A stretch of 64,000 nt of DNA from Xylanibacter ruminicola (GTDB lineage: Bacteria; Bacteroidota; Bacteroidia; Bacteroidales; Bacteroidaceae), in assembly GCF_900142525.1 (NCBI RefSeq), contig NZ_FRBD01000013.1:62001-126000 (forward strand), written 5' to 3'. The notes under the pieces were generated by a model. It was not told the DNA's origin. It did no database searches and worked only from the letters and a program-made list of their open reading frames with translations. Both the position numbers and the translations under genes were made by a program. Of the stretch, positions 35,564-48,264 are shown in pieces; position 1 is the first letter of the stretch, and each line of letters begins with the position of its first letter.

Positions 35564-36535
35564 TTAATAAGCTGCTCTGTATTTGCCTTCATCCTTATCT
35601 TCGAGCATAGACAGATAGGACTGATAGCGGCTTTCGGCTATGTAATGGTCTTCGAGTGCTTTAAGTACTGCACAACCAGGTTCGTGGGTATGGGTACAAT
35701 TAGAGAATCGACACTCTTGCGAGAAATGGAATATCTCCTTGAAATAGCTGGTCAACTCCTCAGGCTCCATATCGAAAGTACCAAAGCCCTTGATGCCTGG
35801 AGTGTCGATGAGCCATGATTTCGCCTCCACCCCTTGCCCCTCCTCTCCAGAGGAGGAGGAGAATACTAATGGTATCATCTCACTAAACGTGGTAGTGTGC
35901 TGACCTGTGTTATGCGCATCACTAATTTCGGCAGTACGCTGACTGGCACCTGGCACCAAGCGATTGATAAGTGTAGACTTGCCCACACCACTATTGCCAC
36001 TCAGCAAGGTAATCTTATCCTTCAACAACGGATGCAGCGCCTCTACCCCATCGCCCGTATTGGCCGAAATCTGATGGCACTCATAGCCAATGGTCTGATA
36101 CAGATTAACCATTGCCTCCTGATAGCGACGCATATCCTCATCGAGCAGATCAGTCTTATTGAACACCAGAATGACTGGCACTCGATAAGCCTCGGCTGAT
36201 GCCAGGAAACGATCGATGAAGGTGGTGGATGTCTGAGGATTAACCACTGTTACCACCAAGATAGCCTGGTCTACATTAGCCGCAATGATATGACTCTGCT
36301 TAGAGAGGTTGATACTCTTGCGGATGATGTAGTTACGACGATCCTCAATCTCAGTGATAAAAGCCGTACCCTCATTGTTGGGTACTATCTGCACTCTGTC
36401 GCCCACAGCCACAGGATTGGTACTACGGATGCCCTTCAACCTGAAGTTACCCTTTATCTTACAATCAATCAGCTGGCCATCGTCTGTTAAGACGGTGTAC
36501 CAGCTGCCTGTATTCTTAATAACGAGTCCGCGCAT
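35564..36535 (-). CDS. rsgA: Ribosome small-subunit-dependent GTPase A
   Basis: A 323-residue circularly permuted GTPase that helps mature the 30S subunit. An N-terminal OB fold is followed by the permuted motifs: NKTDLLD (G4), [15 protein letters not shown] (G1), [10 protein letters not shown] (G2) and DTPGIKGFG (G3), then the zinc site [14 protein letters not shown]. Residues about 225-240 ([16 protein letters not shown]), between IPLV and WLIDTPG, are encoded by a CCTCCTCT/AGAGGAGG palindromic repeat and appear to be a captured insertion right before the G3 motif. Start overlaps the frr stop as TAATG. Confidence 0.94.
35831..35860. repeat. CCTCCTCT/AGAGGAGG palindromic repeat inside rsgA
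   Basis: CTCCTCT (35840-35846) and AGAGGAG (35849-35855) are inverted around CC, preceded by CCCTTGCCC. The same GC-rich palindrome class forms the terminator at 12236-12255. Here it is read through in frame. Confidence 0.75.
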
Positions 36536-37095
36536 TATACGGTCATGATCTCTTTGTTCTTGGCTGTAATCAGTTCGTCGATCTTCTTGATGTACTTATC
36601 ATGCAACTTCTGGAGCTCAGCCTCAGCATCCTTCTCCAAGTCCTCAGAAAGACCATCCTTGATTGCCTTCTTCAGCTTATCCTTTACATCGCCACGAACG
36701 TTACGAACCTCAACCTTTGCCTTCTCAGCAATCTTGTTACACTGCTTGGTAAGGTCACGACGACGCTCCTCAGTAGGAACAGGGATATTCAGGCGGATAA
36801 TCTCGCCATTGTTCTCAGGAGTGATACCTACATCGCTATCCATGATAGCCTTTTCGATGTTACGGATCTCCTTGCGGTCCCAAGGCTTGATGGCGATGGT
36901 ACGAGGATCAGGAACGCTCACGTTAGCAACCTGATTCAGAGGCACCTTGCTACCATACACTTCTACACGAACACCATCGAGAATGGCCACATTGGCACGA
37001 CCTGCACGAATGCGATTCAGCTCGTCCTCAAGGTACATAGCTGCCATCTCCATGCGCTCTTCGCTTTTCTTTAAAATTTCTTTTACGTCAACCAT
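36535..37095 (-). CDS. frr: Ribosome recycling factor
   Basis: A 186-residue protein that splits post-termination ribosomes with EF-G. Signatures: [48 protein letters not shown] is continuous at the expected place (quoted here only in part: RAGRAN, VYG, PLNQVA, DPRTI, KPWD), then an [15 protein letters not shown] segment and helical tail. Normal length, no disruption. First gene of frr-rsgA-S9 peptidase; the stop overlaps the rsgA start. Promoter at 37126-37157. Confidence 0.96.
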
Positions 37096-37254: not shown

Positions 37255-39282
37255 ATGCTTATAGATATTAGCCACACCTACATCTATTTGATAGCGGCAT
37301 TTATTATTTCCGCTATCGCAATGGTAGTATACAACCGATTGACTTACTACAAAGAAAAACGAGTGACGCGTGAGGTACAAAGACTGAATGCACAGCTAAC
37401 CCTCATTATGGATGCCAACAAAACTGATGCCTGGACTTATAATACCAAGAAGAACGTATTCAAAGTTATATCAAAAAAGGATCTTACGAAAACATTCTAC
37501 ACCCCATTCGAGTTCTCGCAGCTGTACGACAGAGAAGACTTCAAGCAGATAGTAAAAGCGATAGAAAGCATACAGAACAGAGAACAGATTACTGACACGC
37601 TGACAGTAAAAGGTTCTCCATCGCAGGATGGCGACGTAAAGACATACGAGATGAGCCTTTCGGTATTACGCAGGAACAAGCAGGATCTACCTATAGAAAT
37701 CCTAGGCACACAAAGAGACGTGACCCAGGAAAAGAATCAGGCCGAAGCGGCCAAGAACCTGATGCTGAAATACCACACAGTGTTCAACTCGTCGCTAGTA
37801 GACATGATATACTACGATGCTGATGGCTATCTGGCAGAACTCAACGAAAAGGCTTGCGAAACATTTGGAGTTAAGAATCCGCAGGAACTTCTGAGACGAG
37901 GAATGAAGATGACAGACATTCCATCGTACAGGGATATCGACATCAAGACCTTAGAGCATACCCAACTATCATCCATCACAGACATCACTCAGGTAAAAGC
38001 CACTGACGAGCGTGTGCCAGAGGTAACTCGAACAGGGAAGATATACTACGAGGTAATGCTAGAGCCTATTCACGACATTGACAACCAGTCGCAAGGTGTG
38101 ATAGCTGCAGGGCGCGACATTACAGAGATGGTAGAGTCGCACCACAGACAGCAAGAGTCAGCCAGGCTGATGGAGGAGCGAACCAAGGCACTGAAACAAT
38201 ATATTGACGACCTGAACTACACACTGAAGATAAGCGATGCACGACTGACGAGCTACTACCCAGAAAGCCACACGCTTGAGATACTGAGCGACTTGAGCGG
38301 AGCAGGCACACGTCTCAGTCAGCTAAAAGCCATAGCTATGGTGCATTCTGACGACAGGAAGCGCGCCAAGCGACTGATAACCAGAATGGACAGGCTGTAC
38401 AAGAGCACCATATCAGAAACTGTACGCACCAAACTTAGAGATCACAAGGGGCGCGACATCTATCTGAACTTCAGTATGATGCCCATAACAGACAAGGAGG
38501 GAAAGGTGACCCACTACTTTGGTATGTGCAGAAATGAGACAGAGATGGCTCACATTGAGAAGCACCTGCAAGAAGAGACGGCCAAGGCGCAAGAGGAGGA
38601 ACAGCTGAAGAACGCCTTCCTGCTGAACATGAGCTACGAGCTACGCGTTCCCCTGCATGCCGTAATAGGATTTGCAGAGTTGTTCAAATCTGAACATAAT
38701 CGAGAAGATGAGCCTGTATTTGCTAACGAGATCAAAAAAAATACTGATGTTCTGTTGGGGTTGATCAATGACATCTTGTTTATTTCACGTCTTGATGCCC
38801 ACATGATAGAGTATCATTATGAGGTGTGCGACTTTGCTGCACAATTTGAGAAATGGTGCCAGAAGGGTTGGGCTGATGCAAGCAAGAATGTAAAGCAAGT
38901 CATAGAAAACTCATACAACTCGCTACTGATTAAGATTGACCCACAGAATCTGGGCACAGCCATCCAGAAACTATGCGGATATTCTGCCCTCACCACTAAA
39001 GCAGGATCGCTGAAGTCGAGATACGAATACCTGCACGACGAGTTGATTATCATAGTAGAAGATACTGGCCAGGGCATGGAGTTTGATGAAGTGCCAAAGG
39101 CTTTCAACCGCTTTATGGGCGATGCCAAGAACAAGCGCATAGGCACAGGCCTAGACCTGCCAATAGTAAAAGAACTGGTTGAACAGATGGGAGGAACCAT
39201 CGATGTACTCTCAGCACCAGGCAAGGGGAACACATTCTTTATGAGCATCCCATGCGAGATGAATAGTTTTGAAAAGAAATGA
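37255..39282 (+). CDS. PAS-containing histidine-kinase-like protein lacking the phosphoacceptor His (pseudokinase)
   Basis: A 675-residue protein: one N-terminal membrane helix (about 7-28), then three PAS-like regions (about 45-160, 170-290, 310-435; for example VFNSSLVDMIYYDADGYL), a dimerisation helix and a HATPase_c domain (about 555-670). The H-box reads LNMSYELRVPLHAVIGF, with Tyr461 where its paralogues have His. The N-box aligned with NAIQHT of kinase 3 reads YSALTT, so Asn is Tyr576. The G1 (VEDTGQGM) and G2 (GTGLDLP) motifs remain. By family rules it cannot autophosphorylate, but it may still dimerise. First gene of the operon, 6 bp before kinase 2. Closest relative here is kinase 3. 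Confidence 0.85.
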   Translation: MLIDISHTYIYLIAAFIISAIAMVVYNRLTYYKEKRVTREVQRLNAQLTLIMDANKTDAWTYNTKKNVFKVISKKDLTKTFYTPFEFSQLYDREDFKQIVKAIESIQNREQITDTLTVKGSPSQDGDVKTYEMSLSVLRRNKQDLPIEILGTQRDVTQEKNQAEAAKNLMLKYHTVFNSSLVDMIYYDADGYLAELNEKACETFGVKNPQELLRRGMKMTDIPSYRDIDIKTLEHTQLSSITDITQVKATDERVPEVTRTGKIYYEVMLEPIHDIDNQSQGVIAAGRDITEMVESHHRQQESARLMEERTKALKQYIDDLNYTLKISDARLTSYYPESHTLEILSDLSGAGTRLSQLKAIAMVHSDDRKRAKRLITRMDRLYKSTISETVRTKLRDHKGRDIYLNFSMMPITDKEGKVTHYFGMCRNETEMAHIEKHLQEETAKAQEEEQLKNAFLLNMSYELRVPLHAVIGFAELFKSEHNREDEPVFANEIKKNTDVLLGLINDILFISRLDAHMIEYHYEVCDFAAQFEKWCQKGWADASKNVKQVIENSYNSLLIKIDPQNLGTAIQKLCGYSALTTKAGSLKSRYEYLHDELIIIVEDTGQGMEFDEVPKAFNRFMGDAKNKRIGTGLDLPIVKELVEQMGGTIDVLSAPGKGNTFFMSIPCEMNSFEKK

Positions 39283-39288
39283 TGTAGC

Positions 39289-41274
39289 ATGCAGATATTG
39301 ATAGTTATATTAACCCTGATGGTCATTATCATAGGAGTGATACTGAACCGCATAACCCTCTACAGTATACGAAGGAATACTGAGAGAGCTAAGGATATGG
39401 CTACCATTATGCAACACACACTTGACGAAAACAACTACGTGATACGACTGAACCTACAGAACCGTCTGGCTGATAACCTGTATGGTAACTTCCTGCCTCA
39501 CGAGGGTATGAGCTACGAGGAGAGTCTGAACTATATACATCCTGACGATAAGCACATCTACATGGCATTTATGAACAGATTGGTTAAGGGTGCCAAATCA
39601 TCAGAGTGTATGTTCAGATGGGACAGAAGTACCAAGGAGCACAAGCACGACTGGCGATACCTGCGTGATGTGGGAATAGTAGAGTATGACGAGCAAGACA
39701 AGAAGAAACCAGTGAACTTCTACTGCACACTTTATGACCAGACAGAACAGATGTTGCTGGAGAAGGAAGATATAGAGTTGACTGATCGCTATCGCAAATT
39801 GTTTGAACAGAGCATCGTAGGTCAGGCCTTTTATGACAAAGACGGCCATCTGCTAACTGCCAACAAGAAATTGCGCGAGATCCTGAAATTCAAAGGCGAC
39901 AATGATCCCTTCTACTACCGTTTCCCATTGTTCGAAATTCCTAACTTCCGCTTTATTATTTATAAGAAAGAAAAGGAAGATCTGTACTTCTGCACCAGAA
40001 CCATCATCACAGAGCGAGAGGTTGACTGCTATGTAGAGATACGTATTCACCCCATCTTCAATAACGACAAGGAGTTGGAGATGTTCACCCTATACATCAG
40101 AGATATCAGTCAGGAGCGAGAGCTATACCATCAGCAAAAGAAGAACGAAGCTCAGATACAGCGTACCAACAAGAAAATTGCTGAGTATGAGAACGAACTG
40201 AAATACCTGATGGATAATATCGAAATGCGATTCTTCCGTGCATCGTTCATCAAGCGCGAGATATCATTCTACAAAGATATGAGTGCACCTGAAATAACGA
40301 TGGATTTCGATAAGCTATTGTCATACTTCAACGGCACACCGTTTATAGAGGAAATGAAAAAGAATCCATACGACTTTTTCAAAGAGCCAAAGAGATTACT
40401 ATCACACTCTCGTTCATTCTTCCAAAATAACGACAAGTTGGAATGGCACTTCATCGACTTTGTACCATTCCACGACGAAGAAGGTAAGCTAACTGGTACC
40501 TATGGTGTATTCAGAAACGTAACCAATCTGATAAACAAACAAGAGCTACTGAAGGAGGAGACTGAACGTGCCAACCAGTCAGGATTGCGCAAGAGTGCCT
40601 TCCTGGCCAATATGAGTCATGAGATACGCACCCCATTGAATGCCATCGTAGGATTCTCAGAGGTACTGCCAATGCTGACCACAGATGCTGAACGAGCACA
40701 GATTATCAAGGTAATCAACAACAACTGCGACATGTTGCTACGTCTGGTTAACGATATTCTGGCACTATCATCGTTTGAAAGCGGAGACATCAAGATTGAA
40801 CCTACCAAGACTGATTTCGCACAATGCTTTAACAACTTGTCGATATCGTTGGCCAAGAGAGTACAGAATCCAAATGTAGAATTCAAAACAGAGAGTCCCT
40901 ATCCCACATTTATCACCACGATAGATGGCGGACGCATACAGCAGGTAATAACCAACTTTGTTACCAATGCTGTTAAATACACCAAAACAGGACACATCAA
41001 GATAGGTTACAAGAAACAGGTTCGCCACGACTTAGAAGGACTGTACATATATTGCGAAGATACTGGTGCAGGCATACCAAAGGAACATCAGAAGAAAGTG
41101 TTCGACCGTTTCGTTAAACTGAATGATTTCGTACAAGGCACAGGTCTTGGGTTAAGCATCTGTAAAGCTATCGCAGATAATTGTGGTGGCGAGATTGGCG
41201 TAACATCCGAGGGCAGGGATTGTGGTTCAACATTCTGGCTCTGGATTCCATGTAAAGAAGAAACAACCATATGA
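39289..41274 (+). CDS. PAS-containing sensor histidine kinase, membrane-anchored, no periplasmic domain
   Basis: A 661-residue kinase with one N-terminal membrane helix (about 3-22) and no signal peptide or extracytoplasmic domain. PAS-like regions occupy about 30-150, 165-280 and 300-410 (LFEQSIVGQAFYDKDGHLL). The H-box LANMSHEIRTPLNAIVGF places the phosphoacceptor at His444; the HATPase_c domain has FVTNAVKYTKTG (N-box), EDTGAGIP (G1), FDRFVKLNDF and GTGLGLSICKAIA (G2). All catalytic elements are intact. The C-terminal half closely resembles kinase 4. No receiver domain is fused. Its stop overlaps the kinase 3 start in ATGA. Confidence 0.9.
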   Translation: MQILIVILTLMVIIIGVILNRITLYSIRRNTERAKDMATIMQHTLDENNYVIRLNLQNRLADNLYGNFLPHEGMSYEESLNYIHPDDKHIYMAFMNRLVKGAKSSECMFRWDRSTKEHKHDWRYLRDVGIVEYDEQDKKKPVNFYCTLYDQTEQMLLEKEDIELTDRYRKLFEQSIVGQAFYDKDGHLLTANKKLREILKFKGDNDPFYYRFPLFEIPNFRFIIYKKEKEDLYFCTRTIITEREVDCYVEIRIHPIFNNDKELEMFTLYIRDISQERELYHQQKKNEAQIQRTNKKIAEYENELKYLMDNIEMRFFRASFIKREISFYKDMSAPEITMDFDKLLSYFNGTPFIEEMKKNPYDFFKEPKRLLSHSRSFFQNNDKLEWHFIDFVPFHDEEGKLTGTYGVFRNVTNLINKQELLKEETERANQSGLRKSAFLANMSHEIRTPLNAIVGFSEVLPMLTTDAERAQIIKVINNNCDMLLRLVNDILALSSFESGDIKIEPTKTDFAQCFNNLSISLAKRVQNPNVEFKTESPYPTFITTIDGGRIQQVITNFVTNAVKYTKTGHIKIGYKKQVRHDLEGLYIYCEDTGAGIPKEHQKKVFDRFVKLNDFVQGTGLGLSICKAIADNCGGEIGVTSEGRDCGSTFWLWIPCKEETTI

Positions 41275-44057
41275 TTATGAATAGATATAGAATAATAGCA
41301 TTTCTAGTGGCATGCCATTTATCTGTAGGCATGACTTACGCTCAACAAAACGAAGACAGCGTCATCGTATACAACGATAAGCGTCCACTTATTTATGAAG
41401 ACGCGTGGGACCTATGGCCATACGTATTCCTAAATGAGAACGGAGAGCCAGATGGTTACAACATAGACCTGCTGAAATTGATATTCAAGGAACTGAATAT
41501 TCCTTACGAAATACGCCTAAGGCCTACACTTGAGGCCCAGAAAGACCTGAAGGAACACAAGTCGGACCTGATGTTGAGAATGGATGCCGACTTTGCCCGC
41601 CACAACTCTTCGTATGGAAGAACCATTGTACAGTTATTCACCCATAGTCTGGTTAAACCTAAGGGACAAACGCTAAACGTAAACAACGTAAAAGATCTGG
41701 CCCAGTATCCAATCATAGTTCACGAAGGAAGCTTTAGTCATCATAAGTTGGTAGATAACGATTGGGCAAAGGAAATCATTCCTTACGATGACATGAAAGA
41801 GGCTATTCAGAACGTAAGTACTGAAAACAAAGGTATCATTTTGTGGAATTCGATGTCGCTGAAATGGTTGATGACAAAATACCAAACAGAGAACCTCGAG
41901 ATAATTCCTATCGATTTTCCCTATGGCGAGTATAAGTTCTTTGCCAACGACCATCGTCTGCTGGAAAAACTAGACAGCGTATATTCAAATCTGCGTGCCA
42001 ACGAACGCCTTACAGCCATACAAAACAAGTGGTTCTATCCTGAACGCCACGAAACAGGTATTCCATCGTGGATATGGGATTTGATCAATTTTGTTGCCAT
42101 ACTTGCTGTGGGCATATTGGTTTACTACACCTTCTTCAAGGTACGCGAACGCAAGATGACCAAAAAGATTAATAAGGAGAACGAGCGTCTGCTGCTACTC
42201 ATGAAGACCAGTAACGTTATGTTCAGTACCTACAATGTCACCTCACAGTATTTCACGGTGATGGACTCATCTGGTCATGCAGAACGCACGTATTCGCTAC
42301 TGGAGTACTCACACAGATTCGATCCTAACGACTTTACAGTACTTACTGACGGACTACGTAGCATTATCGATGAAAAAAAATCGACTATCACTTTGCAGCT
42401 AAAAGAGTACGACAACGACTTGATTAACAGCAATAACTATACGGCTACGCTATCAGTACTCAGAAGAGACAAACGTAAAAGGCCATCAATCATCATTATC
42501 TCAAAGACCGACACCAGCCAAGACAGAATGCGTCAAGCCCTGATTAAGGAGTCGATGCTGCGTTATCAGTCGATATTCAACTCAGCTATGGTCGACATGG
42601 TATACTATGATGCTGATGGATATATTGTCGACATGAACCTCAAGTCGATATCAGTAATTGGTTGTGATATTGACGAAATCAAGAGACGTAGAATCTCGCT
42701 TCGTGATGTCATTGGCATTGACAATCTCGATATCGACAAGTTTGAATACTTCTATGCCACACAGTTATTCAATTCGCCTAGCGATAACAGAGTTTTGAAC
42801 AAGATTTTGGGCAGAGATACACTCTATTACGAGTTGCAAGTACTACCTATACGCGATAAGTATGGCAATCGCATAGGATTCTTTGGAACAGGACGTAATG
42901 TCACAGAATCGGCTAATTCATACAGAAAGCTGAAAGAAAATTCCAGCGAGTTACAGGCCATCAAGGACGAGGTAACCACCTATGTTCACAACATCGACTA
43001 TGTGCTGTCTGTAGGTGGTATCAGCCTGGTAAAATATCACCTCGATACACATACACTTACCATTTACAGCGAAATTGGCCACGAGAAATATTCATTGACA
43101 CAAACCAGAGCTCTGGCATTTGTTGACAGCTCATCTGAGAAACAGGCTCTGCGCATACTCAACAAGATGGACAATCATCAGGTAGGCAATCTAAGTGTTG
43201 AGGTAAAAACAAACATCCGACGACGCAAAGACCGCATACCACTTTACCTGCAGCTTAACTTTGTGCCCACTTATAAAGACGGTGCTATACAGGAGTACTT
43301 CGGACTGATACGTGATATTAGCGATATAAAGGCAGTAGAAGAGAAACTGGCCATGGAGTCAATACGAGCTCAGGAGGTTGAGACTGTTAAAAACGCATTC
43401 CTGCACAACATGAGCCACGAAATCCGTACGCCATTGAATACTGTAGTAGGATTCTCAGAGCTCTTTGAAATAGAGCATTCTGCTGAAGACGAGGCTGTGT
43501 TCATCAGCGAAATCAAGAACAACTCTGCATCGCTGCTAAAGCTGATTAACGACATTCTGTTCCTATCGCGACTCGATGCGGGCATGATTACAGTATCTCC
43601 ACAACCTGTCGACTTTGCAAGCATCTTTGCAGGTCGCTGCACATCGATATGGGATAACCACAAACTACCTGGCGTGGAATACAAAATCCAGAGTCCATAC
43701 AAACGACTTGTCATCGAGATTGATGAACCCAACGTATCATTAATCATCAATAAGATTATTACCAATGCCATACAACACACCAAATCAGGTTGCGTATTGG
43801 CACGATATGAGTATATTGCTGACAGACTGCTGGTATCTGTAGAAGATACAGGAAGCGGTATCAAGAAGGAAAATCTGGAGAACATCTTCGGACGATTCGT
43901 AACTGGCGCCAATAATGGTGCTGGCCTTGGCCTTAGCATCTGTCATGAACTGATACAGTACATGGGTGGTAAGATAGAACTGACATCTACTGAGGGCAAG
44001 GGTACCACAGTTTGGTTCTCATTGCCATGCAAGATGTTAGAAATGGAAAGAAACTAA
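41271..44057 (+). CDS. Sensor histidine kinase with periplasmic solute-binding (SBP_bac_3) domain
   Basis: A 928-residue protein: signal peptide (about 1-24, ending TYAQ), a periplasmic SBP_bac_3-type domain (about 30-255; PLIYEDAWDLWPYVFLNENGEPDGYNIDLLKLIFKELNIP-like start, quoted as EPDGYNIDLLK), a membrane helix (about 268-290), PAS-like regions (about 310-690), H-box LHNMSHEIRTPLNTVVGF with His716, then HATPase_c with IITNAIQHTKSG, EDTGSGIK and GAGLGLSICHEL. The sensor fold normally binds amino acids or related small molecules, so this kinase probably reads a periplasmic ligand. It parallels pseudokinase 1 in its cytoplasmic part. It overlaps kinase 2 by 4 nt and precedes kinase 4 by 17 bp. 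Confidence 0.9.
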   Translation: MIMNRYRIIAFLVACHLSVGMTYAQQNEDSVIVYNDKRPLIYEDAWDLWPYVFLNENGEPDGYNIDLLKLIFKELNIPYEIRLRPTLEAQKDLKEHKSDLMLRMDADFARHNSSYGRTIVQLFTHSLVKPKGQTLNVNNVKDLAQYPIIVHEGSFSHHKLVDNDWAKEIIPYDDMKEAIQNVSTENKGIILWNSMSLKWLMTKYQTENLEIIPIDFPYGEYKFFANDHRLLEKLDSVYSNLRANERLTAIQNKWFYPERHETGIPSWIWDLINFVAILAVGILVYYTFFKVRERKMTKKINKENERLLLLMKTSNVMFSTYNVTSQYFTVMDSSGHAERTYSLLEYSHRFDPNDFTVLTDGLRSIIDEKKSTITLQLKEYDNDLINSNNYTATLSVLRRDKRKRPSIIIISKTDTSQDRMRQALIKESMLRYQSIFNSAMVDMVYYDADGYIVDMNLKSISVIGCDIDEIKRRRISLRDVIGIDNLDIDKFEYFYATQLFNSPSDNRVLNKILGRDTLYYELQVLPIRDKYGNRIGFFGTGRNVTESANSYRKLKENSSELQAIKDEVTTYVHNIDYVLSVGGISLVKYHLDTHTLTIYSEIGHEKYSLTQTRALAFVDSSSEKQALRILNKMDNHQVGNLSVEVKTNIRRRKDRIPLYLQLNFVPTYKDGAIQEYFGLIRDISDIKAVEEKLAMESIRAQEVETVKNAFLHNMSHEIRTPLNTVVGFSELFEIEHSAEDEAVFISEIKNNSASLLKLINDILFLSRLDAGMITVSPQPVDFASIFAGRCTSIWDNHKLPGVEYKIQSPYKRLVIEIDEPNVSLIINKIITNAIQHTKSGCVLARYEYIADRLLVSVEDTGSGIKKENLENIFGRFVTGANNGAGLGLSICHELIQYMGGKIELTSTEGKGTTVWFSLPCKMLEMERN

Positions 44058-44074
44058 AAACGTAACATAGAGAT

Positions 44075-46828
44075 ATGATGACAAAGAAGATAATAATATT
44101 AGCCATTACCAGTTTGCTTGCCTTGTGCCCCACACAGCGTGCTGAGGCTGGCTACATACGCGAATATACTAATGAAAAGCCACTTGTAATCGTTAGCGAC
44201 TGGGAGTTTCCGCCTTATGAGTTCAGAAACGACCATGGCGCCCCCGATGGATATAATGTAGAGGTACTGAACCTGATTCTAGACAAGCTTGGTATTCCCC
44301 ACAAGTTCGTCATGCTAGAGTGGTATAAATGTACTGAGGCTTTCGACAATCATGAGGCCGACCTGATACATGCCCTCAAGTTCAAATACGAAGGACCAGA
44401 ATTTGAGTACACCCACAACATGATTACCTATTATAATGTAAGAGCCATCAGACTTAGGTCAACACGTCCGCTTAGACGAATGAGTCAGCTCACCAACAAC
44501 GACACTCTTACACTTAAGAGGAACGACTATGTAGACCTGAAGGTAAATGCACTCGCCCAAAAGGATTTCACAGTTGAATATCATGCACCACGCGAAGCAT
44601 TGATGGGAATCAGAAACGGAAAGTACAAGTACTACATGTGGGGCGAACAGCCACTAAAGATGAAGGTTAAAGAGCTAAGTCTTGAAGGCATAGAATTCGA
44701 TGAGACAGATATTCCTTCAGGTGAGTTGCGTATTATAGGCTACGACAAGGAACTGATACACGCCATCGACGATCTTTTTGCACGTTTGGAGCAATCAGGC
44801 GACATTCAGAAGATACACGAAAAGTGGTTCCATCCAGAGCACGTTCATAACGACGCCTCGCCTATGGCACTTTTCCTGCTGGTAGCCATTATCATTACAG
44901 CTATTGTTGTCCTGCTTTTTAGCCGCATGATGCGTATCAGAGTGAAGAAGGCTGTTGAGAAATCGTTAGACATGAACCAGCTGATGACTGAGGCACTTAG
45001 ATCTGGCAACTACTACGTGATAGAATACGACATACAAACGCAGCGCATGAGAAATGATTATGGCGATATGCTACCCAAGGAGGGTCTGAGCCGCGAGGAG
45101 TTTATGAAGCGTCTGCCTGATAACGAGAAAGGCAAGTTTAGCGAAGCCATGCGACTGATGAGTCAGGGCCAGAAAGACCTGGGCTACCTGAAACGCAGAT
45201 ATAATAAGGGAACAGAACAGAACCCTGATTGGCGCTGGATTGAAGGTCATGCTGTAGTGGAGCACGTAGATGGCAAGCCACGCTACGTCATCACATCTTT
45301 CAGAGACTTTACACATGAGATTCTGGAAGAGCGTATCAATGAAGAGATAGCCAGTAAGTACCAGAACATGTTCAGCAACGGACTTATCGCCATGTCGTTC
45401 TACGCAAAAGACGGAACGCTGATTGATGTTAACAAACGCATGAGCGAACTATGCGAATTCGACAAAGAAGGTGAAGAGTTCTTCCGCAAGATGAATCTGT
45501 TTGAAGTACCTTTGGTAAAAGGACAGTATCAAAAGGGCGACAAGGAGAGTTTCCATGTATGCCAGCGTATGTTCTATCCTGAAATCGGCATCTATAAGTA
45601 TATTGAGATAAAGGTTCATCCCACATTCGACGATGAAGACGAATTGCAGTTCTACATTGTTACAGCTCGTGACATGACAGCCGAACGCCACATGTATCTG
45701 GAGCAGTCAAAACACGACAAGGAGATACAAAAAGCAACTGCAGACATCCAGTTCTACGAAAAGCAACTTGGCTATCTGCTTGAGAACTGTAAAATGTTCC
45801 TATGGACATACGACCTGAAAGAAGGCCTCATCCACTTCAGTTATAGTGGACATAAGTCCGACTATACCAAGACGCTAGATGTGTTCTTTGGTGGTGCCAC
45901 AGATGAGTATCGCGAAGATGCTTTCAGAGAGGCCAGAGAAGCTATCTCTCAGGCTAAGCCCTACAACAAGACCATCCACTTCAAGTACACCATGATTGAG
46001 CCAAATCCTGTATGGTACGCCATCAGCGGTATACCTAAGTTTGATGAAGAGGGTAATCTTACCAAGTACTTTGGTGTGGCGCGTAACATCGACAAGCTGA
46101 TGGAGGCTCAGCAGAAGCTGAAAGACGAAACCAAACGTGCTGAAGAGTCAGGAAAGATGAAGGCAGCCTTCCTTGCCAACATGACTCACGAGATACGCAC
46201 GCCACTGAATGCTATCGTAGGCTTTAGCGACCTTCTGCCAGTTGTAGAGGGCCATGACGACCGTATGGAGTTCATCCGCATTATCCGCAACAACTGCGAT
46301 ATGCTGATGCGACTCATCAACGATATCCTCGAAGCATCGAATGTGGGGCAGGCGCTGGCTATTCAGCCTGAAGAGGTAGACTTTGCCAAGGTATTCGATG
46401 ATATCTGTCAGACGCTGGCCCAGCGTGTAGACGAGGCTGGAGTACAGTTTATCAAAGACAATCCATACGACTCGTTTGTTGCTACACTCGACAAGGGACG
46501 CATACAGCAGGTATTGACCAACTTCACCACCAACGCCATCAAGTACACCCACGAGGGCCACATCAAGGTGGGCTATCGCGAACAGGATGGTGGCATCTAC
46601 TTCTATTGCGAAGACACAGGTGCAGGTATCCCTAAGGACAAGCAGAATGCTGTATTCGAGCGATTCGTAAAACTTAACGACTTTGTACAAGGCACAGGTC
46701 TTGGTCTTAGCATCTGTAAGGCCATAGCTGAGCGCTGTAATGGTAAGATAGGCGTAACGTCAGAAGGCGAAGGACACGGTTCAACCTTCTGGATGTGGAC
46801 ACCAAGAAACATTAGCGAGAAATCGTAA
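44075..46828 (+). CDS. Sensor histidine kinase with periplasmic solute-binding (SBP_bac_3) domain
   Basis: A 917-residue protein: signal peptide (about 1-26, ending AEAG), SBP_bac_3-type periplasmic domain (about 33-250; DWEFPPYEFRNDHGAPDGYN, VEVLNLILDKLGIP), membrane helix (about 265-288), PAS-like regions (about 300-690), H-box LANMTHEIRTPLNAIVGF with His705, HATPase_c with FTTNAIKYTHEG, EDTGAGIPK and GTGLGLSICKAIAE. Intact kinase. The cytoplasmic half is closely similar to kinase 2, down to FVKLNDFVQGTGLGLSI. It ends the operon; a set of three small palindromes follows at 46847-46907. No response regulator follows. Confidence 0.9.
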   Translation: MMTKKIIILAITSLLALCPTQRAEAGYIREYTNEKPLVIVSDWEFPPYEFRNDHGAPDGYNVEVLNLILDKLGIPHKFVMLEWYKCTEAFDNHEADLIHALKFKYEGPEFEYTHNMITYYNVRAIRLRSTRPLRRMSQLTNNDTLTLKRNDYVDLKVNALAQKDFTVEYHAPREALMGIRNGKYKYYMWGEQPLKMKVKELSLEGIEFDETDIPSGELRIIGYDKELIHAIDDLFARLEQSGDIQKIHEKWFHPEHVHNDASPMALFLLVAIIITAIVVLLFSRMMRIRVKKAVEKSLDMNQLMTEALRSGNYYVIEYDIQTQRMRNDYGDMLPKEGLSREEFMKRLPDNEKGKFSEAMRLMSQGQKDLGYLKRRYNKGTEQNPDWRWIEGHAVVEHVDGKPRYVITSFRDFTHEILEERINEEIASKYQNMFSNGLIAMSFYAKDGTLIDVNKRMSELCEFDKEGEEFFRKMNLFEVPLVKGQYQKGDKESFHVCQRMFYPEIGIYKYIEIKVHPTFDDEDELQFYIVTARDMTAERHMYLEQSKHDKEIQKATADIQFYEKQLGYLLENCKMFLWTYDLKEGLIHFSYSGHKSDYTKTLDVFFGGATDEYREDAFREAREAISQAKPYNKTIHFKYTMIEPNPVWYAISGIPKFDEEGNLTKYFGVARNIDKLMEAQQKLKDETKRAEESGKMKAAFLANMTHEIRTPLNAIVGFSDLLPVVEGHDDRMEFIRIIRNNCDMLMRLINDILEASNVGQALAIQPEEVDFAKVFDDICQTLAQRVDEAGVQFIKDNPYDSFVATLDKGRIQQVLTNFTTNAIKYTHEGHIKVGYREQDGGIYFYCEDTGAGIPKDKQNAVFERFVKLNDFVQGTGLGLSICKAIAERCNGKIGVTSEGEGHGSTFWMWTPRNISEKS

Positions 46829-46846
46829 GGCGCAAGAATAAAAAAT

Positions 46847-46907
46847 GTTCCCAGCCTGGGAACAAATTATTCCCAACGTGGGAACATCATGTTCCCAGGC
46901 TGGGAAT
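46847..46907. terminator. Three tandem TTCCCA/TGGGAA palindromes between kinase 4 and nhaD
   Basis: GTTCCCAGCCTGGGAAC (46847-46863), TTCCCAACGTGGGAA (46870-46884) and GTTCCCAGGCTGGGAAT (46891-46907). The third is followed by ATATTTTTTG on the plus strand, and the first by AT-rich sequence on the minus strand, so the set can terminate both convergent transcripts. Units 1 and 3 are also inverted copies of each other. Confidence 0.75.
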
Positions 46908-46932
46908 ATTTTTTGTATTTAGTTCTTATTAA

Positions 46933-48264
46933 TTAGAAGAATAGTGCACGCTCAATCCAGTAAACCAGAATACCTGCGATGTAGCCTGCAAATGCTATCC
47001 AGGTAATCTTCTTCATGTACCAGCCAAAGGTAATCTTCTCAAGGCCCATAACCACTACACCAGCAGCAGAACCAATGATAAGCATAGAACCGCCCACACC
47101 AGCACAGTAAGCCAGCAACTGCCAGAAGATACCATCGATAGCCATATCGCCAGCAGCAGCTACAGGATACATACCCATACAACCAGCTACCAGAGGCACA
47201 TTATCTACGATAGATGACAGCACACCAATAATACCAGTTACGAGGAAGTGATTACCCTCGAAGGTCTTGTCGAGCACGCCACCAAGCATGGTGAGTACAC
47301 CAACCTCCTGAAGTACAGCCACAGCCATCAGGATGCCTAGGAAGAACATGATGGTAGAGAGGTCGATCTTCGACAACAAATCGCTTACACGCTTGGCCAT
47401 CGTGTCATCGTCAGAGGTGTTGTAGTGGAAAATCTCAGTAACTGTCCACAGCAATCCCAGAACCAGCAGGATGCCCATGAATGGGGGCAGATGGGTAATG
47501 GTCTTGAAGATGGGCACAAAGCAGAGACCACCTACACCAAGCCAGAAGATGATGTCGCGCTGCGACTTGGTGAACTGGCTTACATCAGCCTTTGGCAGAT
47601 TCTGCTCCTTGTCGAACTTGCCCTGAAGCTGATACTGCAGAATAAATGCAGGCACAAGCATTGAAACAAGCGAAGGAACAAAGATTTCTGTGAGCACCCC
47701 CTGAGTGGTGATAACACCCTTGATCCAGAGCATAATGGTGGTAACGTCGCCAATAGGCGAGAATGCACCTCCAGAGTTGGCTGAGATAACCACAAGTGCT
47801 GCATAAATCAGGCGATCGTTACGATTCTGAACCAACTTACGGAGCACCATAATCATGACGATAGAGGTGGTGAGGTTGTCGAGAATAGCTGAAAGGAAGA
47901 AGGTCATAAAGGCCATTCGCCACATCAGCTTACGCTTAGAACGCGTCTTCAGCGTGTCACGAACAAAGTTAAATCCACCATTCGAGTCCACAATCTCTAC
48001 AATGGTCATGGCTCCCATCAGGAAGAAAAGTGTGCCAGCAGCATCGCCCAGATGGTGTTCGATAACCTCCGAGATATGGTGGATGACATCACCACCAAGA
48101 ATCGATGAATAATACGATGCAGGATCGAGCATGAGCAGTGTCCAACACAGCACACACATCAGCAGCGCAATGGCCGCTTTATTAACTTTTGTCAGGCTCT
48201 CAAGAGCTATGCACATATAGCCTATGCAGAACACTGTGACAATAAGAATTGTTAATGTTGACAT
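46933..48264 (-). CDS. nhaD: NhaD-type sodium/proton antiporter
   Basis: A 443-residue polytopic inner-membrane protein of the ion-transporter superfamily, with about 11-12 hydrophobic segments. Family-like blocks: ESLTKVNKAAIALLM, LFFLMGAMTIVEIVDSNGGF, FLSAILDNLTTSIVM with the conserved DN pair, ANSGGAFSPIGDVTTIMLW with the SPIGD signature, and SSIVDNVPLVAG. These proteins extrude Na+ (or Li+) in exchange for H+. Monocistronic; promoter at 48308-48339, terminator shared with the kinase operon. Confidence 0.92.
   Translation of the reverse strand: MSTLTILIVTVFCIGYMCIALESLTKVNKAAIALLMCVLCWTLLMLDPASYYSSILGGDVIHHISEVIEHHLGDAAGTLFFLMGAMTIVEIVDSNGGFNFVRDTLKTRSKRKLMWRMAFMTFFLSAILDNLTTSIVMIMVLRKLVQNRNDRLIYAALVVISANSGGAFSPIGDVTTIMLWIKGVITTQGVLTEIFVPSLVSMLVPAFILQYQLQGKFDKEQNLPKADVSQFTKSQRDIIFWLGVGGLCFVPIFKTITHLPPFMGILLVLGLLWTVTEIFHYNTSDDDTMAKRVSDLLSKIDLSTIMFFLGILMAVAVLQEVGVLTMLGGVLDKTFEGNHFLVTGIIGVLSSIVDNVPLVAGCMGMYPVAAAGDMAIDGIFWQLLAYCAGVGGSMLIIGSAAGVVVMGLEKITFGWYMKKITWIAFAGYIAGILVYWIERALFF

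Follow-up and report, generated by a model that had tools for sequence, protein, structure and literature searches.

The run of four large sensor kinase genes in the window (the whole 64,000-nt stretch of Xylanibacter ruminicola DNA analyzed here) is, by sequence similarity, two tandem pairs, A-B (37255-41274) and A'-B' (41271-46828), and not four equal kinases. In each pair the second gene encodes a kinase with intact catalytic residues, while the first belongs to a class that has mostly lost its phospho-acceptor histidine, and this pairing recurs across the genus. We think it probable that A regulates and B catalyzes in a heteromeric receptor, in the manner of DivL-CckA or RetS-GacS.

Organization of the four-gene operon

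The lengths of the four plus-strand ORFs (Table 1) and their spacing, namely a 6-nt gap between A and B, a 4-nt overlap between B and A', and a 17-nt gap between A' and B', are all as an earlier sequence-only reading of this DNA had described them. Pfam domains PAS, HisKA, and HATPase_c were found in A, B, A', and B', and SBP_bac_3 was found in A' and B' as well, which bears out the description of two of the genes as having periplasmic solute-binding sensors and of the other two as having only an anchor. The same Pfam search showed no Response_reg domain in any of the four proteins, again as claimed. The statement that all four are PAS-containing kinases holds for the domains but not for the competence of the first gene product, which has Tyr461, Tyr576, and Asp634 at key catalytic positions.

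Table 1. Features of the operon (positions in the window)
Feature	Position	Strand	Description
Gene A	37255..39282	+	675 aa; membrane anchor, PAS repeats, degenerate HisKA/HATPase_c (predicted pseudo-histidine kinase)
Gene B	39289..41274	+	661 aa; membrane anchor, PAS repeats, intact HisKA/HATPase_c (predicted active-type histidine kinase)
Gene A'	41271..44057	+	928 aa; solute-binding domain, TM, PAS repeats, HisKA/HATPase_c, His present
Gene B'	44075..46828	+	917 aa; solute-binding domain, TM, PAS repeats, intact HisKA/HATPase_c
Venus-flytrap domain of A'	41346..42056	+	periplasmic; model pLDDT 88.9; best PDB match 3h7m
Venus-flytrap domain of B'	44144..44848	+	periplasmic; model pLDDT 92.8; best PDB matches 4ymx, 3h7m
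Tyr461 codon TAC	38635..38637	+	A, phospho-acceptor His position; H box reads NMSYELRVP
Tyr576 codon TAT	38980..38982	+	A, N-box Asn position (= Asn560 of B)
Asp634 codon GAC	39154..39156	+	A, a G2-box Gly position (= Gly621 of B)
Phospho-acceptor His444 codon CAT	40618..40620	+	B
His716 codon CAC	43416..43418	+	A'
His705 codon CAC	46187..46189	+	B'

The large ORFs flanking the operon, 36535-37095 and 46933-48264, both lie on the opposite strand; from our own reading of their sequences we take the former to be frr-like and the latter to be transporter-like. B' and the transporter-like gene converge on a 104-nt gap, where three near-identical hairpins of the TGTTCCCA..TGGGAACA type (46846-46909) resemble an array of terminators working in both directions. 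Counts of promoter-like and terminator-like sequences in the region were at chance level.

Pairwise comparison over the whole PAS-kinase part gave 34% identity between A and A' and 39% between B and B', against 27% between A and B. Because A and A', and likewise B and B', are more alike than A and B, the operon reads as a tandem of two pairs. The genome of the window holds two more pairs in the same A-then-B order, one on C18 without flytraps and one on C32 with flytraps. A search for the same four-gene order in related genomes, proposed in the sequence-only reading, found 53 A-B-A'-B' operons, one of which (L110) has a frame-broken A, within 126 loci comprising the window, its own genome, and same-genus relatives (100 of these loci being the best-scoring among the matches listed, with weak members under-represented). 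A chance layout or an oddity of a single genome was ruled out by these 53 operons.

Both flytrap domains were modeled with confidence (mean pLDDT as in Table 1), and their folds resemble those of amino-acid binding proteins and of a kinase sensor of the periplasmic-binding type (3h7m). Genes that we call cysK-like and metY-like from the Pfam families PALP and Cys_Met_Meta_PP occur in 12 of the 126 loci each; a cysK-like gene lies directly before A at 11 loci, and the metY-like gene is sometimes on the other strand. Our guess is that the cue is a sulfur amino acid.

Distribution of the family

Among 398 genomes of the genus, the A model (E <= 1e-140) matched 168, and among the 175 of high quality it matched 57; the B model matched 160 of 396. 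The genomes carrying A and those carrying B were nearly identical in a comparison by eye of these two samples of 398 and 396, with 159 shared, nine A-only, and one B-only. Matches above 500 bits were confined to the genus; in 24 genomes, one from each of 24 further genera of the order, no match exceeded 190 bits, and these matches lay in the generic kinase core. A search of genome contigs, in which 80 loci were kept, added three specific relatives (L021-L023, Prevotella records), the remaining loci being weaker matches, mostly to the kinase core. Against NCBIfam, the four window proteins matched generic kinase models below the cut-offs and only a PAS domain model above. Among the open-licence full texts listed, we found no paper on this kinase-pair family and none on pseudokinases among the histidine kinases of Prevotella.

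Counting fragments (e.g., three pieces of the broken A of L110), we classified 194 ORFs of the 126 loci as A-class and 190 as B-class. The counts for complete proteins given below leave out six of the 194 A-class and 11 of the 190 B-class ORFs as incomplete or broken, one of which, the frame-broken L133, was set aside by hand. ORF calling was mechanical: the B' of L204 is hidden by an ORF on the opposite strand, and B and A' of L138 run on in one frame.

Loss of catalytic residues

When scored by the criteria of the HisKA class, A has its H-box His, N-box Asn, and one G-box Gly all replaced, but still has the Asp of the G1 box and the second scored Gly; on these residues, A is a pseudokinase and catalytically dead. 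The key residues of the H, N, G1, F, and G2 boxes are present in B, A', and B', and A' carries Lys at the first N-box Asn position. Elsewhere in this genome, the A of the C18 pair has Tyr and is without the Asn, the A' of the C32 pair has Gln, and both of their partners have His, as do all four B-class proteins of the genome. Seven other kinases of the genome, read with an H-box pattern in the fetched loci and forming a subset of its 34 HisKA matches, all have His.

The same contrast between the two classes was seen across the family. The His position is occupied in the 194 A-class ORFs by Tyr (117), His (27), Gln (24), Phe (15), Glu (3), or Ser (2), the rest being five single other residues and one gap, and in 186 of the 190 B-class ORFs, fragments included, by His. 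Of the four B-class exceptions, L133 and L138 have a broken frame, the H box being intact in a different one; L112 runs off the end of its contig; and L109 is a decayed fragment of 400 aa that truly reads Gln. When only complete proteins are counted, His is missing from 162 of 188 A-class proteins (Tyr in 116 of 188), while B (58/58) and B' (121/121), 179 of 179 in total, keep each of the ten sites scored, including the His, Asn, and Gly. Complete A proteins without a flytrap keep His in 4/59, the equivalent of Asn560 in 10/59, and that of Gly621 in 0/59; for complete A' proteins the numbers are 22/129, 116/129, and 122/129. These counts indicate two degrees of loss, with A dead at both sites and A' mainly at the His. 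The loss of His is not obligatory, since 26 of the 188 complete A-class proteins, including the A' of the window, retain it; 20 of the 188 have His together with the other four sites counted and could be active. The remainder of the A-class H box is well kept (E445 in 185/194, R447 in 184/194, and P449 in 192/194).

Within the 53 four-gene operons, A has Tyr in 47, His in four, Phe in one, and Leu in one (the broken frame of L110), and A' has Tyr in 24, His in 13, Phe in 12, Gln in two, Ser in one, and Glu in one, with His in 53/53 for both B and B'. There was no evidence in these operons that His in A and His in A' exclude each other: both have it in 0/53, with about one expected. Overall, dead/live pairs make up 156 of the 181 pairs read, and the A partner keeps His in 25 of the 181.

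Pairing of A and B

A B-type sequence, defined as one scored better by the B model than by the A model, follows on the same strand within 2.6 kb of 185/185 complete A-class genes with room downstream (>=2,000 nt). The junctions comprise 61 A-B and 122 A'-B', most of them between -4 and +30 nt. The two members of a pair are also matched in length, which stands in here for the presence of a flytrap: among 181 pairs both are long (>=800 aa) in 122, both are short (below this) in 57, and two are mixed, these two having a short B frame that in one case is cut by a contig end.

Distances among A proteins follow those among B proteins with a Mantel r of 0.917 (200 permutations reach no more than 0.031), a value that also reflects the common descent of neighbors. 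Coupling between the DHp domains was higher for cognate than for crossed pairs by 0.08 (bootstrap 0.05-0.10, ignoring relatedness), a small signal that is suggestive only. The top-scoring column pairs in mutual information reflect subfamily history, and only the contrast of cognate with crossed pairs is informative.

One A'-like protein of 532 aa in the genome of the window (L004:7026-8624, on C39) has the solute-binding domain, lacks the kinase domain, and is followed by a B'-like remnant; this is probably a decaying pair.

Selection and evolutionary history

Median dN/dS among seven close relatives was 0.106 for A, 0.103 for B, 0.091 for A', and 0.072 for B', from 15 to 19 usable comparisons of 21 per gene, some with high dS. 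Purifying selection acts on A, and it is equal to that on B.

The H-box residue was masked in building a tree of 152 A-class representatives, on which His and non-His states interleave; the minimum is 11 changes, or 12 when B serves as a His outgroup, and 35 losses are needed if His is never regained. The A' of the window falls in a six-member His group, beside a Phe group and within mostly Tyr relatives. By parsimony, this nesting among Tyr and Phe relatives means that the His of the window's A' may have been regained.

A proposed two-subunit receptor

The sequence-only reading suggested heteromeric kinase complexes or a shared distant regulator. The former is now the best-supported explanation and is favored because the first gene product is catalytically dead and dead/live pairing recurs across the genus, while no regulator could be assigned for the latter. 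It counts against the heteromeric explanation that genes of a single operon would be inherited together, and have matching domains, in any case, that the coupling signal is small, and that A-class proteins with His, including the window's A', exist.

We infer heterodimerization and allosteric control as follows. The operon would encode the receptors A:B and A':B', each of two subunits, which would have arisen when an ancestral pair was duplicated. B and B' would be the catalytic subunits, which autophosphorylate and donate the phosphate; A and A' would be regulatory subunits that dimerize with B and B' through the DHp and PAS domains and set their kinase/phosphatase balance, A' adding a matching periplasmic solute-binding domain to the A'B' dimer. 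In the window's A:B only B would be able to supply both the His and the ATP site, and in its A':B' the phosphate might reach B' in trans, by way of the ATP site of A'. The phosphate would go to a receiver encoded elsewhere, possibly a soluble hybrid kinase-receiver of the same genome (G000:C32:18621-19868).

Output and alternative explanations

A response regulator encoded in the same run in close relatives, which the sequence-only reading named as the finding that would speak against a pure kinase operon, turned up once, as an OmpR-type regulator at L023, and at none of the other 125 of the 126 loci when all ORFs were searched with a receiver profile, many loci being cut by contig ends. On the loci of the window's own genome, this profile recovered the regulators from which it had been built, along with two others. 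At L023 (L023:2573-12938), metY, cysK, the OmpR regulator, a kinase, A', and B' run in one direction, and the pair is a divergent member of the family, with His in both proteins. A kinase of the L023 type stands before A'-B' at L118, at the contig edge. The second match to the receiver profile, at L104, is on the opposite strand.

A might instead be a reversed sensor, a homodimer whose DHp domain binds a phosphorylated receiver and informs B, as proposed for DivL and DivK~P (PMC4211667). This precedent, the E, R, and P kept in the H box of A, and the purifying selection on A are all compatible with such a role. We nevertheless regard it as unlikely, since it leaves unexplained both the matching of long with long and short with short and the strict A-then-B adjacency, and since a same-direction receiver is missing at 125/126 loci.

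We give the same low credence to the view that these are ordinary orphan kinases sharing a distant response regulator, with A a dispensable paralog that has no role in the activity of B. Kinases of this kind are common in the window's genome, which has 34 HisKA and 24 Response_reg matches and, by eye, many HisKA without a nearby Response_reg, so that a missing adjacent response regulator is not unusual there; the OmpR-type regulator beside the divergent pair of L023 also fits. A dispensable A is difficult to reconcile with purifying selection as strong on A as on B and with a B behind every one of the 185 complete A genes that have room downstream. A candidate for a shared regulator is the soluble hybrid kinase-receiver (416 aa; the same gene as L003:6619-7872), for which a full-length ortholog was found in 37/39 A/B-positive genomes (all but G245 and G363) and in 0/41 A/B-negative genomes, the latter being those not listed among the positives of the A-model surveys. 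It sits in a conserved three-gene run in 20/20 genomes examined, with neighbors that are presumably glycosyltransferase-like and endonuclease/phosphatase-like genes. In a dnaE tree of 41 genomes, however, A/B presence is mostly confined to one clade, inside which G083 and G065 (the latter 61% complete) lack both A/B and the hybrid. Independent contrasts on this tree agreed in three of four cases, with none opposed and one showing no difference, and with only four contrasts significance is out of reach. The search for a co-occurring orphan regulator, which the sequence-only reading had advised, gave this association, but clade history confounds it and no single regulator is assigned by it. The hybrid kinase-receiver is a candidate and not a finding, and its co-occurrence with A/B was dropped as proof of the target, which we infer. 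An orphan regulator of the REC-SpoIIE type (C16) showed a looser association, being full-length in 30/39 A/B-positive and 5/41 A/B-negative genomes. Most of the 39 A/B-positive genomes also have more matches to a SpoIIE-type phosphatase than most of the 41 A/B-negative genomes do.

To widen the two-subunit explanation, these pairs may be genus-wide periplasmic receptors in which one subunit has repeatedly, perhaps reversibly (Tyr/His/Phe/Gln), become a non-phosphorylatable regulator, in two degrees that would leave A', unlike A, able to phosphorylate its partner in trans, with several of them feeding one shared soluble hybrid kinase-receiver in place of dedicated response regulators. We put this forward tentatively, as a possibility on the doubtful side.

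The output might also involve no receiver at all, the pair controlling a neighboring AraC-type regulator or, in the C32 type, a partner switch with a SpoIIE-type phosphatase. The statement that no transcription factor is adjacent holds for the operon in the window but not in relatives, where an AraC-type gene adjoins at 31/126 loci, following the pair on its own strand in all 31. Thirty of these loci are among the 113 clusters with >=1,000 nt downstream, and the other is L208. The AraC-type regulator of L101 (L101:15103-15966), for example, comes directly after B', a placement seen in a quarter of relatives. A SpoIIE-type phosphatase gene adjoins the Gln-type (C32-type) pair in 13 loci. The C32-type pair with Gln in A' at L002:7850-13171 is convergent with a SpoIIE-domain phosphatase gene (L002:5914-7833), and the phosphatase gene is on the same strand as the pair at L152 (+13 nt) and L157 (-4 nt). 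The phosphatase ORF of L114 also matches an RsbW-like protein and adjoins a STAS-like gene. A receiver domain was absent from the AraC-type and SpoIIE-type neighbor proteins tested. Although the same-strand AraC genes, the 13 phosphatase loci, the two short same-strand junctions, and the RsbW-like/STAS case all speak for such an output, the AraC-type gene is absent beside the window's operon, the search of its genome for an ortholog gave at best 55 bits over the DNA-binding part only, and the SpoIIE link is limited to one subfamily, which is not that of the window. We judge this slightly less probable even than the reversed sensor.

Finally, it is very improbable that the A genes are decaying pseudogenes, because, despite the lost catalytic residues, the truncated A'-like gene on C39, the frame-broken A of L110, and the decayed pair of L109, 188 of the 194 A-class ORFs are complete, dN/dS is about 0.11 in the closest relatives, and the replacements are recurrent and specific (Tyr, Phe, Gln) and not those of random decay.

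Comparison with known systems

By analogy, DivL, FasBC, evolved ChrS, and RetS-GacS are functional analogs of the A/B pairs. DivL of Caulobacter has Tyr at the phospho-acceptor position and several PAS domains before the kinase core, and controls the live kinase CckA (PMC4211667). The Tyr is shared by the window's A and by 116/188 complete A-class proteins. In 2014 DivL was said to contain Tyr uniquely, with the other kinase boxes apparently kept (PMC4211667), whereas in the window's A the N-box Asn and a G2 Gly are also replaced. A also differs in sharing an operon with its presumed partner and in being related to B (27%) and A' (34%). Among the PDB sequences that A matches, 29 in all and of similar strength, DivL comes fourth by E-value (68 bits), and the specific relatives of A that were found belong to its own genus.

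FasB and FasC of group A Streptococcus are two kinase-like proteins of one operon for which a heterodimer is proposed with one member as a proposed pseudokinase (PMC12675982). The two kinase-like genes lie together as A and B do. FasC, however, keeps and probably uses its His (H246) and has a dispensable kinase domain, the opposite of A', and the response regulator FasA is encoded in the Fas operon (PMC12675982), whereas a regulator was found at only 1/126 A/B loci. In RetS-GacS of Pseudomonas aeruginosa, one sensor kinase likewise controls another by heterodimerization, but both are described as hybrid kinases, and GacS has receiver and phosphotransfer steps (PMC12189002), none of which are fused in the A/B proteins. 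An inactivated kinase also alters signaling through a paralogous kinase in the case of ChrS of Corynebacterium glutamicum; this is a laboratory-evolved frameshift and not a natural family, and the truncated form showed no significant heterodimerization in a two-hybrid test (PMC9491836).

A' and B' resemble the periplasmic-binding-protein kinases in having an SBP_bac_3 flytrap before the TM segment, with 3h7m as the best or second-best fold match. Flytrap kinases of the BvgS/EvgS type have receiver and HPt domains fused. A, B, A', and B' differ from them in having no receiver, in being encoded by paired genes, and, for A and B, in lacking the flytrap.

Implications

Few pseudo-histidine kinases are known. 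Here, versions with Tyr, Phe, Gln, and His are found side by side. The family would allow testing of what the dead half contributes, of whether phosphorylation occurs in cis or in trans, and of how catalytic loss evolves and perhaps is reversed. The genus, of the Prevotella group, is common in the gut and rumen, and for many of its sensory kinases no regulator is apparent. Our analysis suggests that the matched dead/live kinase pairs of these bacteria are two-part receptors that signal without a neighboring response regulator.
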